A stretch of DNA of 64,000 nucleotides. Source: Actinomyces slackii. Its GTDB lineage: Bacteria; Actinomycetota; Actinomycetes; Actinomycetales; Actinomycetaceae. The DNA lies in assembly GCF_900637295.1 (NCBI RefSeq), contig NZ_LR134363.1, positions 2,418,001 through 2,482,000 on the forward strand, in the 5' to 3' direction. Numbering within the stretch: the first letter of the stretch is position 1; every line of letters begins with the position of its first letter. A model generated the notes under the pieces. The model had not been told where the DNA came from, did no database searches, and worked only from the letters and a program-made list of their open reading frames with translations. Shown one piece after another: positions 40,792 to 44,123 of the stretch. Both the position numbers and the translations under genes were made by a program.

Positions 40792-41667
40792 TCAGTAGAC
40801 CGTGAATCCGTGGGCGCGGAAGATGGCGCGGGTGGACTCCACGAGCTCGGGCTCGGGGGGCCGGGTGTCCCTGAGCCGGTAGTCCAGGCCCAGGCTGTCC
40901 CACTTGTCGGTGCCCATCTGGTGGAAGGGCAGGACCTCGACTCGGCTCACCGAGCCCCAGCGCTCGATGATGCGCGCGACATTCTCGACATTGGCCGGGT
41001 CATCGGTCAGGCCCGGCACGAGCACGAAGCGCGCCCAGATCTCAATGCCCCTGGCCGCCAGGCGATCGCCGAAGGCGATGGTGGGAGCCAGCTCCCTGCC
41101 GGTGACCGCCGCGTAGGTCTCCTCATCCCCGCTCTTGACATCCAGCAGGACCAGGTCGATGGTGTCGAGCATCTCATCGGTGGCGTTGGCGCCCAGGTAG
41201 CCGGAGGTGTCGATGCAGGTGTGGATGCCCATGGCCTTGGCCCCGGCCAGCAGTCGGGCGGCGAAGGCCGGCTGCATGAGGACCTCGCCGCCGGACAGGG
41301 TGATGCCCCCCTTGGAGGCGCGGAAGACGCCCCGGTAGCGGCGCATGCGTCGCAGGAGCTCGGCGGCCTCCACCGGCTCGCCGTCCTTCATGAGGAAGGT
41401 GTCCGGGTTGTGGCAGTACAGGCAGCGCAGGGGGCATCCGTTGAGGAAGACGGTCATCCGCGTGCCGGGGCCGTCCACCGCGGTGACGAGCTCCCAGGAG
41501 TGGATGGAGCCCAGCTCACCGCTGCGCATGCGCTCCAGGCGCTCGGAGCGCTGAAGGTCGGTGAGCTCCTCGAGCCCGCCGATGCCGGCTCCGCGCAGGC
41601 GGGCGGCCGGGGCCAGGAAGTCCTGGTCCCGGCCGCCCGCCTGCGCGGTCGTGCGCGTCTCGGACAT
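40792..41667 (-). CDS. pflA: Pyruvate formate-lyase activating enzyme
   Basis: A 291-residue radical SAM enzyme that abstracts a hydrogen to create the glycyl radical of pyruvate formate-lyase. The cluster motif is CPLRCLYC within FLNGCPLRCLYCHNP, followed by GGITLSGGEVLMQP and DTSGYLGANA. An N-terminal extension of about 55 residues precedes the core. It is the third gene of the pflB, glycyl-radical ORF, pflA operon, 22 nt after the glycyl-radical gene. Its target here should be the glycine in the separate 81-residue protein. Confidence 0.93.
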   Translation of the reverse strand: MSETRTTAQAGGRDQDFLAPAARLRGAGIGGLEELTDLQRSERLERMRSGELGSIHSWELVTAVDGPGTRMTVFLNGCPLRCLYCHNPDTFLMKDGEPVEAAELLRRMRRYRGVFRASKGGITLSGGEVLMQPAFAARLLAGAKAMGIHTCIDTSGYLGANATDEMLDTIDLVLLDVKSGDEETYAAVTGRELAPTIAFGDRLAARGIEIWARFVLVPGLTDDPANVENVARIIERWGSVSRVEVLPFHQMGTDKWDSLGLDYRLRDTRPPEPELVESTRAIFRAHGFTVY

Positions 41668-41689: not shown

Positions 41690-41935
41690 TCAGGCCTGGG
41701 AGTGGAAGGTGCGGTCCAGGACGTCGAGCTGCTGCTCGCGAGTGAGCTTGACGAAGTTGACGGCGTAGCCCGAGACGCGCACCGTCAGGTTCGGGTAGTT
41801 CTCCGGGTGCTCCATGGCGTCCTCGAGGGTGTTGCGGTCAAGGACGTTGATGTTGGCGTGGTACAGGCCCTTGACGCCGCCGTTGTCCTGACGCTGAGCC
41901 TTCATCGAGGCGAGGCGCTCTTCATACGTGGCCAT
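41690..41935 (-). CDS. Stand-alone glycyl-radical domain of pyruvate formate-lyase (GrcA-like)
   Basis: An 81-residue protein. After about 22 residues ([20 protein letters not shown]) it matches the C-terminal end of pyruvate formate-lyase: [33 protein letters not shown] (radical Gly) and [14 protein letters not shown]. The neighbouring PflB lacks this segment, so this protein must supply the radical in trans. E. coli GrcA/YfiD is similar but is only a spare part beside a complete PflB. RBS AAAGGGG lies about 8 nt before the ATG. It is in a different frame from pflB (73 nt between), so a simple frameshift or stop-codon error does not explain it. Confidence 0.9.
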
Positions 41936-41991
41936 GGCTAGGCCCCTTTCGTGATCGGTGAACAGTGTGTGGTCTGGCGGTGATCCGAGTC

Positions 41992-42009
41992 ATCCGCCAC
42001 AGGGCGGAT
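41992..42009 (-). other. Small stem-loop between pflB and the glycyl-radical gene
   Basis: ATCCGCC (41992-41998) and GGCGGAT (42003-42009) pair around a 4-nt loop right after the pflB stop codon. It could slow 3' decay or set the ratio of the two cistrons. No T-run follows. Confidence 0.45.
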
Positions 42010-44123
42010 CAGATCTCGGCGCAGTCGTCGGGAACGAATCCGGCGTCGAGGATGCCCACGAGGTTGGCCACCCGCTCGGCCTCGGTGCGGCCCAGGCCCT
42101 GGGGGGTGATGGTGTTGGTCAGCGAGATGCCGTCGAGGGCGTCGTTGTAGTCCAGCTTGCCCACCGAGAGCATGGAGGCGACCATCCCGTGAGTGTCCAT
42201 GCCGTTCTCCGGGTTGGCCCCCGGGGAGAAGGGCGTGCCCTTGCGGTGCCCGGAGGGGAAGTTCCCGGTGGCCTTGCCGTAGACCACATTGGAGGTGATG
42301 GTCAGCACCGACTGGGTGGGGATGGCGTCGCGGTAGAAGGGCTGGGCCTTGATCTTGGACATGACCGTGTGGACCACGGTGGCGGCGATGTCGTCGGCGC
42401 GGTCGTCGTCATTGCCGTAGATCGGGAAGTCGCCCTCGGTGATGTAGTCCACCACCAGGCCGGTCTCATCGCGCACCGGGGTGACCGTGGCGTACTTGAT
42501 GGCGCTCAGGGAGTCGGCCACGATGGACAGCCCGGCGATCCCGCAGCCCATGGTGCGGATGATCTCCGAGTCGTGCAGGGCCATCTCGATGGACTCGTAG
42601 GCGTAGCGGTCGTGGCAGTAGTGGATGATGTTGAGGGCCTCGACGTAGGTGGCCACCACCCAGTCGAGCATCTTCTCGTACTTGTCCCAGACCTCATCGA
42701 AGTCCAGCGGACCGTCCCCCTCGATGCCGGGCAGCCCGGAGACCACCTGCTTGCCGGTCATCTCGTCGCGCCCGCCGTTGATGGCGTAGAGCAGGGCCTT
42801 GGCGGAGTTGACGCGGGCGCCGAAGAACTGCATCTGCTTGCCGACCTTCATCGGCGACACGCAGCAGGCGATGGCGGCGTCGTCCCCCCAGTGCTCGCGG
42901 ATCTGCTCATCGGCCTCGTACTGGATGGAGGAGGTGGTGATGGAGATCAGCGCGCAGAACTCCTTATAGCCCTGGGGCAGGTTCTCGTCCCAGAAGATCG
43001 TGATGTTGGGCTCCGGGGCGGGGCCGAGGTTGCGCAGGGTCTGCAGCAGCCTGAAGGAGGTCTTGGTGACCTGTGAGCGGCCGTCCTCGGAGAATCCGGC
43101 ATCCGACCAGGTGGCCCAGTAGGGATCGCCGGAGAAGATCTGGTCGTAGTCGATGGTGCGCAGGAAGCGGGTGATGCGCAGCTTGATGACGATGTGGTCG
43201 ATGAGCTCCTGGGCGCGGGTCTCGTCGATGATCCCGGCGGCCAGGTCGCGCTCGAAGTAGACGTCGAGGAAGGCCGACAGGCGCCCGATGCTCATGGCGG
43301 CGCCGTCCTGGGACTTCACCGAGGCCAGGTAGGCGAAGTAGGTCCACTGCACGGCCTCATGGGCGTTCCTGGCCGGACCGGAGATGTCATAGCCGTAGGA
43401 GGCGGCCATGGCCTTGAGCTTCTTGAGGGCCTTGATCTGCTCGGAGTGCTCCTCGCGGTAGCGCGCCCAGTGCTCGGAGAAGGGCTCGCCGGCGACCTCG
43501 TCCCTGGCGATCTGCTTGAGCTCGATGAGCCGGTCCACGCCGTAGAGCGCCACTCGCCGGTAGTCGCCGATGATGCGACCGCGCCCGTAGGCGTCGGGAA
43601 GGCCGGTGATGATGTGGGAGGAGCGGGCTGCGCGAATGCGCGGGGTGTAGATGTCGAAGACCGCGTCGTTGTGGGTCTTGCGGTACTGGGTGAAGATCTT
43701 CTTGACCTCGGGGTCGACCTCCTTGCCGGCCTCCTTGATCGCGGTCTCCACCATGCGCCATCCGCCGTTGGGCATCATGGCGCGCTTGAGCGGGGAGTCG
43801 GTCTGCAGACCGACGATGACATCGTCATCGGGGCTGATGTAGCCGGGCTTGAAGGCGTCGATATCAGCGGGGGTGTGGGTGTCGACGTCGAGGATGCGGA
43901 CCTTGCGCTCCTTGGACAGGAACTCCTTCTCCAGGGTGTCCCACACGCGCAGGGTCTTCTCGGTGGCGCCCGCCAGGAAGGAGGCGTCGCCGTCATAGGG
44001 GGTGTAGTTGCGCTGAATGAAGTCGCGGACGTCAGTGCTCTCGGTCCACGGACCGGTGACGAAGCCCTCCCAGGCCTCATCCCTGGCGCCCGTGGTGGCG
44101 GCTGTCGTGAGCTCGGCGGTCAT
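42009..44123 (-). CDS. pflB: Pyruvate formate-lyase catalytic protein without glycyl-radical domain
   Basis: A 704-residue formate C-acetyltransferase (pyruvate + CoA to acetyl-CoA + formate). The barrel is complete, with the catalytic Cys-Cys pair in IACCVSPMKVGKQ and segments GWRMVETAIKEAG, LPDAYGRGRIIGDYRR and DGISLTNTITPQGLG. It ends at LVGILDAGFVPDDCAEI, exactly where ordinary PflB (about 760-790 residues) goes on into the loop and the glycyl-radical domain. That domain is encoded by the next gene. 704 plus 81 residues is about the length of a normal PflB. RBS GGGAGGG lies before the ATG at 44123. Confidence 0.93.
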   Translation of the reverse strand: MTAELTTAATTGARDEAWEGFVTGPWTESTDVRDFIQRNYTPYDGDASFLAGATEKTLRVWDTLEKEFLSKERKVRILDVDTHTPADIDAFKPGYISPDDDVIVGLQTDSPLKRAMMPNGGWRMVETAIKEAGKEVDPEVKKIFTQYRKTHNDAVFDIYTPRIRAARSSHIITGLPDAYGRGRIIGDYRRVALYGVDRLIELKQIARDEVAGEPFSEHWARYREEHSEQIKALKKLKAMAASYGYDISGPARNAHEAVQWTYFAYLASVKSQDGAAMSIGRLSAFLDVYFERDLAAGIIDETRAQELIDHIVIKLRITRFLRTIDYDQIFSGDPYWATWSDAGFSEDGRSQVTKTSFRLLQTLRNLGPAPEPNITIFWDENLPQGYKEFCALISITTSSIQYEADEQIREHWGDDAAIACCVSPMKVGKQMQFFGARVNSAKALLYAINGGRDEMTGKQVVSGLPGIEGDGPLDFDEVWDKYEKMLDWVVATYVEALNIIHYCHDRYAYESIEMALHDSEIIRTMGCGIAGLSIVADSLSAIKYATVTPVRDETGLVVDYITEGDFPIYGNDDDRADDIAATVVHTVMSKIKAQPFYRDAIPTQSVLTITSNVVYGKATGNFPSGHRKGTPFSPGANPENGMDTHGMVASMLSVGKLDYNDALDGISLTNTITPQGLGRTEAERVANLVGILDAGFVPDDCAEI

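Follow-up and report, generated by a model that had tools for sequence, protein, structure and literature searches.

A conserved, apparently obligate two-chain pyruvate formate-lyase in Actinomyces slackii and its family

Introduction

Pyruvate formate-lyase (PFL) has a well-defined weakness: oxygen cuts its main chain at the radical glycine. The Escherichia coli enzyme (PflB; TIGR01255; PDB 2PFL and 1H16) holds the radical domain, about residues 696-759, in the same chain as its active-site cysteines. E. coli also makes GrcA/YfiD (TIGR04365; PDB 6OWR), which supplies the radical in trans; according to the accessible text of PMC8683613, this protein has a disordered N-terminus of 60 residues and repairs complete PflB. 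The same text describes tPFL, an artificial truncation of E. coli PFL at residue 695 by Andorfer and co-workers. The cut abolished measurable binding of YfiD, and activation of tPFL with YfiD was 32-fold below that of cleaved PFL with YfiD; shortening YfiD brought a 5.4-fold gain in tPFL activation, and complexes of PFL 1-695, once activated, matched the wild-type activity (PMC8683613, accessible parts). In vivo, E. coli PflB-G734A yields formate at an intermediate level with GrcA, and none without it, in the portion of PMC12338860 that is accessible. This work in E. coli shows that chemistry in trans is possible. A preliminary description of the locus studied here had set it apart from known GrcA proteins, taken only to repair a complete PflB; as a functional contrast this is too strong, since a full-length PflB incapable of carrying a radical already yields formate when GrcA is present.

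Two further families of small glycyl-radical proteins are curated by NCBI, GrcA2 (NF008341), whose name designates a cofactor, and GrcA3 (NF038360). No description of an obligate split PFL appears among the literature matches listed, a coverage with most subscription journals outside it, and a natural split PFL is not described in the accessible parts of PMC11528403, PMC12208373, PMC12338860, PMC6493303, PMC4177395, PMC12288474, PMC13252398 and PMC8683613. Here we analyze a locus of Actinomyces slackii in which a truncated PflB is followed by a separate GrcA2. The small protein already carries its curated family name, and novelty is limited to that extent; this analysis contributes the link to a truncated PflB, with which it would form an obligate pair.

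Results

A pyruvate formate-lyase divided between two genes

We examined a window of 64,000 nucleotides of A. slackii DNA, to which all coordinates refer unless another locus is named. The split of PFL that had been proposed for it is borne out: both genes are present on the minus strand, in the order pflB, grcA2, pflA (Table 1). The small gene has its own start codon, and also the ribosome-binding-site-like sequence and new N-terminus claimed for it. The difference in frame between the two genes, likewise part of the preliminary description, is real in A. slackii but incidental, because the gaps in relatives (49 genomes read from DNA) measure 4-227 nt and fall in all three phases. Folding of positions 41900-42030 was not above that of shuffled sequences (z -0.55), and thus no hairpin was detected in the gap. 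The product of pflA reaches 297.8 bits against the PFL activase profile TIGR02493 (cut-off 231.75).

Table 1. Features of the split pfl locus of A. slackii
Feature	Coordinates	Strand	Remarks
pflB, catalytic subunit (large chain lacking the radical site), 704 aa	42009..44123	-	equivalent of E. coli PFL 1-699
Codons of Cys421 and Cys420, active-site cysteine pair	42861..42866	-	invariant in alignments; position read from DNA
Intergenic stretch of 73 nt separating pflB from grcA2, which are not in frame	41936..42008	-	read from DNA
AAAGGGG, ribosome-binding-site-like, 7 nt 5' of the grcA2 ATG	41943..41949	-	read from DNA
grcA2, 81-aa glycyl-radical protein, small subunit	41690..41935	-	own ATG; NF008341 match
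GrcA2 N-terminal segment, about 20 residues	41876..41935	-	without counterpart in the fused PFLs inspected; kept in the split clade
Gly56 codon in RVSGYAV, expected radical site	41768..41770	-	motif lines up with those of E. coli PFL and GrcA
pflA, radical-SAM activase	40792..41667	-	TIGR02493; ATG at 41667, listed ORF starts at TTG 41670

PflA has an N-terminal extension ahead of its DGPG motif (41490-41667), also seen in most members of the family, split and fused, with start codons that are uncertain. Its presence in both kinds of locus led us to reject it as a trait specific to the split.

In PflB, Pfam recognizes the PFL-like domain and, of the 106 positions of the Gly_radical domain, the first 65; the small protein matches positions 65-106, of which 66-106 occur on it alone. 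The Gly_radical domain is thus divided between two genes without loss. Against TIGR01255 the large chain scores 986.3 bits where 994.2 are required, with an alignment that covers positions 1-681 of a 744-position profile; the shortfall is due to the missing C-terminus. Of the features of this family, the cysteine pair and the PFL fold are there, and a glycyl-radical domain in the same chain is not. An AlphaFold model of PflB (40 sequences, mean pLDDT 88.3, pTM 0.89) superposes on residues 1-699 of E. coli 2PFL over 693 residues with an rmsd of 1.5 A at 57% identity, and agrees with the earlier claim of a Cys-Cys protein that ends at the linker. In a gapless alignment, residues 18-78 of GrcA2 pair with residues 696-756 of E. 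coli PFL. This places the cut near E. coli residue 695, the site of the tPFL truncation; PflB ends at the equivalent of about residue 699.

The small protein belongs to GrcA2, with 167 bits against a cut-off of 145, and falls below the cut-offs of the GrcA/YfiD profile (84.4 against 170) and of GrcA3 (98.1 against 158). Its residues 20-78 nevertheless align without gaps to YfiD 66-124, over 59 radical-domain residues. Two differences separate it from YfiD: the N-terminus is about 20 residues long, and A. slackii has no complete PflB to repair, the truncated form being the only one found in its genome. In six sequences compared, the N-terminus follows the pattern T-Y/F-x-E-R-x-x-x-M-K, with exceptions that include L071, L090 and L097. 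Modeled alone, GrcA2 gives a weak prediction (pLDDT 66.5), with a helix at residues 4-17 predicted at low confidence. The gene is under purifying selection, dN/dS being 0.035-0.294 against 10 genomes (11 loci, G062 twice).

Phages carry related sequences. T4-type GrcA (Y06I) is a phage spare part for the host enzyme. In a phage collection, 1,533 of 50,697 records match the small protein, and the PHROGs matches are two families annotated as of unknown function. Two records labelled Staphylococcus phage match it at 78% and may hold host DNA.

One PflB per genome, mostly split

The A. slackii genome is a single closed contig of 3,220,508 bases with one PflB match, the truncated one; neither a complete PflB nor a second match to the small protein (E up to 0.001) was found elsewhere in it. 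We then turned to a family sample of 151 genomes, A. slackii included, using a PflB match threshold of E up to 1e-30. A match was missing in 22 genomes, and the other 129 had exactly one each, 97 of them split and 32 fused. A truncated PflB with a separate small gene, the kind of pair for which the preliminary description had proposed a search of related genomes, is therefore the commoner form. Since a complete PflB is lacking in A. slackii and each genome has a single PflB match, a working enzyme must receive its radical in trans; the claim that it always does so stands under that condition.

PflB identity is 77-100% across the split genomes, each of which has a separate small gene, and 64-67% in the fused genomes, where a single frame of 755-812 codons includes the radical domain. 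The small gene exceeds the GrcA2 cut-off in all split genomes except G036, where it is cut by a contig end (96 of 97). Large and small genes are adjacent and on one strand in 97 of 97; for 49 genomes this comes from the stop, gap and start read from DNA, and for the other 48 from a match spacing of 14-228 nt on one contig. The full order of large chain, small chain and activase was seen in 24 of 25 split loci, and the remaining locus (L071) stops at a contig edge. Cys420-Cys421 is invariant across the aligned sets, and dN/dS of PflB is 0.05-0.19 (10 of 11 loci computable). Both forms occur within two genera, g21 and g33.

Matches in eight split PflBs had been flagged for in-frame stops (seven TGA, one TAG). 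Four were inspected at the DNA level (G010, G019, G032 and G036; the other four flagged are G059, G081, G091 and G143) and proved free of stops before their end, so that the flagged match had run beyond the true stop; in-frame stops were rejected for these four. The split is no artefact.

Seven of the 97 split genomes (G017, G071, G145, G027, G129, G136 and G031) gave one more match to the radical domain, a weak one of 42-51 bits that lies within a frame of 847-926 codons. It is probably another glycyl-radical enzyme, and because of this second frame the small protein could have other partners in these seven.

A fused relative in Cellulomonas citrea

The PflB of Cellulomonas citrea (L098:3937-6195) is 80.6% identical to that of A. 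slackii and is fused through a short linker to a radical domain. At the junction, ILDAG is joined to a ten-residue stretch at which the GrcA2-like domain starts, and the GrcA2 N-terminus is missing. Whether it predates the split or was re-fused, this protein links PflB and GrcA2 as one enzyme, in the manner of a Rosetta stone. Tests bearing on these two histories, a one-clade test with p 0.579 and a second with p 0.565, favored neither. No activase was found at the C. citrea locus.

Across PflB, 32 sites are fixed in the split clade of A. slackii (clade A) versus fused Actinobacteria, several of them otherwise invariant in the compared rows (337, 339, 622 and 626, for example). After realignment with the fused C. 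citrea protein, 31 sites qualified, of which C. citrea shares 28. These changes thus do not track the split, and we rejected them as a sign of splitting. In Silvimonas terrae (L099:6001-6442), a complete PFL is directly followed by an additional gene for a radical domain, about 61 residues long, which may represent a step toward a split.

A second, independent split of PFL

Among named genomes, the best 80 loci listed comprised 72 fused, 5 split and 3 cut by contig ends. All five split loci belong to Corynebacterium (including C. xerosis and C. wankanglinii) and show the same split as A. slackii; for two of these genomes, a search of the whole genome with the GrcA3 profile found the standalone domain only. 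A phylum-wide sample of 396 genomes gave 29 matches at E 1e-20, 21 of them short frames from families f20 and f41 of another class; these genomes are probably Coriobacteriia. Each of the 25 matching genomes searched (of the 29) had one PflB match. Twenty loci from this sample comprised one more split of the A. slackii type (G289), 17 splits from f20 and f41, with an activase within the locus in 15 of the 17, and 2 fused genes. Among 249 Bacillota genomes, one (G777) had a protein above the GrcA3 cut-off, and its PflB is also split.

The two kinds of split differ in their breakpoint. The helix NLVGILDAG stays on the large chain in clade A, whose small chain bears the new N-terminus. In clade B, by contrast, the large chain ends after an ALGK-type motif and a variable tail; the break lies about 20 residues earlier, so that the small protein carries the helix NLVxMxDxY. 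Many clade B large chains (L073-L089) end in a variable tail that is cysteine-rich, for example DCGCC or PDCAEC. Clade B comprises other Actinomycetota, the Bacillota case and the PDB chains 38LA (687 aa) and 38LB (739 aa), named "Formate acetyltransferase"; its small proteins go with GrcA3. Support in the tree was 100 for clade B and 100 for clade A together with C. citrea. Forcing clades A and B together was rejected (AU p = 7.4e-5, 89 rows). The PFL split thus has two independent origins, and a single origin is rejected.

From their sequences, 38LA and 38LB appear to be solved structures of natural split large chains of clade B, which thus seems to be under structural study; the small-protein query found no match among them. 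For the clade A large chain, no solved structure was found by sequence match to the PDB, and 38LA and 38LB are absent from the 50 structural matches listed for the PflB model (structures to 8 April 2026).

Splits in other glycyl-radical enzymes

Four Bacillota genomes, a small number, contain what look like further splits of glycyl-radical enzymes other than PFL. At two loci (L186:2673-5320 and L187:2719-5301), the large chain is nearest the PFL2-3 profile and the radical domain is on a separate RVAGY protein (86 and 78 aa, respectively). The same arrangement is suggested by sequence likeness for L211 (reverse strand, 1-1725 of the reverse complement), where the large chain is partly in the locus and the radical frame has 87 codons. 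At the fourth, L188:2705-6253, the large enzyme measures 752 aa and comes closest to the CutC and PFL2-3 profiles; it is accompanied by a separate radical protein of 98 aa and by an activase. Of the large chains of L186, L187 and L188, none reached a curated cut-off. In the family of L188, 17 of the 29 genomes examined matched, and only the L188 genome did so in a short frame; in the order of L187, 12 of 22 matched, two in short frames. Genes resembling ABC transporters or binding proteins lie beside the splits in L186, L187 and L211.

Discussion

Given the observed gene structure, single copy, conservation and selection, and the predicted fold of the large chain, we consider it highly probable that an obligate PFL is assembled from two chains, PflB (704 aa) and GrcA2 (81 aa), encoded beside its activase. 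The fused C. citrea protein and the E. coli precedents add to the case; the loss of YfiD binding in tPFL, the further radical-domain frame in seven split genomes and the C. citrea locus, where no activase was found, count against it. By analogy with E. coli, the working of the parts can be pictured as follows, from docking and activation to trans catalysis and exchange after oxygen damage. PflB would provide the sites for substrate and CoA together with the cysteine pair 420/421, and GrcA2 would complete the barrel with its last strand and add the glycine loop and C-terminal helix. PflA would take a hydrogen from Gly56 of GrcA2, probably with GrcA2 docked on PflB; with the glycine loop inside the PflB barrel, Gly56 would pass the radical on as a thiyl radical to the cysteine pair, and pyruvate and CoA would be converted to acetyl-CoA and formate by catalysis in trans. 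Cleavage by oxygen would fall on Gly56 of GrcA2 and spare the PflB chain, so that a fresh small chain could restore the enzyme. The natural arrangement resembles the pair of tPFL and shortened YfiD in E. coli, as far as the available parts of PMC8683613 describe it. Because the E. coli enzyme cut at 695 loses YfiD binding, docking must be solved differently in A. slackii, and the conserved N-terminus of about 20 residues in GrcA2 would be the obvious candidate for restoring it.

The A. slackii genome has a gene of the formate/nitrite transporter family, a point in favor of the two-chain reading. Among organisms for which formate has been followed, Mobiluncus belongs to the Actinomycetaceae and Atopobium to the Atopobiaceae. 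The accessible part of PMC12208373 gives a formate loss of about 90% with 1 mM hypophosphite in Mobiluncus mulieris and Atopobium vaginae, and that of PMC6493303 low formate secretion by Actinomyces naeslundii. For Varibaculum cambriense no PFL is reported in the accessible part of PMC4177395, in line with the missing PflB match in some of the family genomes sampled.

The reading of two genes as two chains has to be weighed against those in which there is only one. Two adjacent frames of one domain could come from a sequencing frameshift, or be joined into a single chain by programmed frameshifting or read-through. Gaps in all phases across 49 genomes, the own start and the new N-terminus speak against this; an artefact or frameshift was rejected on the closed genome, the 97 split genomes and the phases of the gaps, and the phases also reject a programmed fusion, so that we give a single chain a negligible probability. 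A reading of PflB as truncated and inactive, with GrcA2 either a remnant or serving some other enzyme as a spare, would fit the narrow miss of the TIGR01255 cut-off and the other long frame with a weak radical-domain match in seven split genomes. It is hard to reconcile with the identity of PflB kept over the 97 split genomes, its invariant catalytic residues and its low dN/dS, and we regard it as very improbable.

If the two chains do form one enzyme, why they are separate is a further matter. The earlier argument, that the small protein could be exchanged after oxygen cleaves the radical site, is plausible by analogy: GrcA2 would be a disposable radical carrier, cheaply made and replaced after each cut, and the split an adaptation to oxygen. 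The host genus, Actinomyces, is oral and often facultative, which would suit this reading, and E. coli GrcA acts in this way on cleaved PFL (accessible text of PMC8683613). Fused forms are nonetheless common in the same family (32 of 129), clade B lineages are probably strict anaerobes, and NrdD, the other glycyl-radical enzyme of the genome, is unsplit (G000:C1:292329-294044, L227; RVMGY near the end of a 793-codon frame). We therefore hold adaptation to oxygen to be possible, and put it forward tentatively. The split may instead be a neutral gene fission, with the small chain bound for life and no advantage in repair. The unsplit NrdD also counts in favor of this, as do the persistence of fused and split forms in one family and even within g21 and g33, and the fused C. 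citrea form inside or beside the split clade. Two independent PFL splits and the splits of other glycyl-radical enzymes hint at a benefit all the same, in searches that could see radical-domain splits only; neutral fission seems to us close to an even call.

More broadly, glycyl-radical enzymes may repeatedly have turned their radical domain into a subunit of its own, obligate and perhaps replaceable. In PFL this would have happened at least two times, with breakpoints that differ, and it would also have occurred among the PFL2/dehydratase-like enzymes of Bacillota. We judge it evenly balanced whether this is a recurrent design rather than a repair accessory.

In the conserved, apparently obligate two-chain PFL described here, the tip that oxygen attacks always forms its own protein, of about 9 kDa, a natural counterpart of the artificial E. 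coli truncation, and one that arose more than once. Docking, the order of activation and repair become directly testable with native proteins. There is also a warning for annotation, in that a "truncated" PflB and a "spare part" GrcA2 overlook that neither may work alone. The part that in E. coli is a spare for repair has apparently turned into a required piece of the enzyme.
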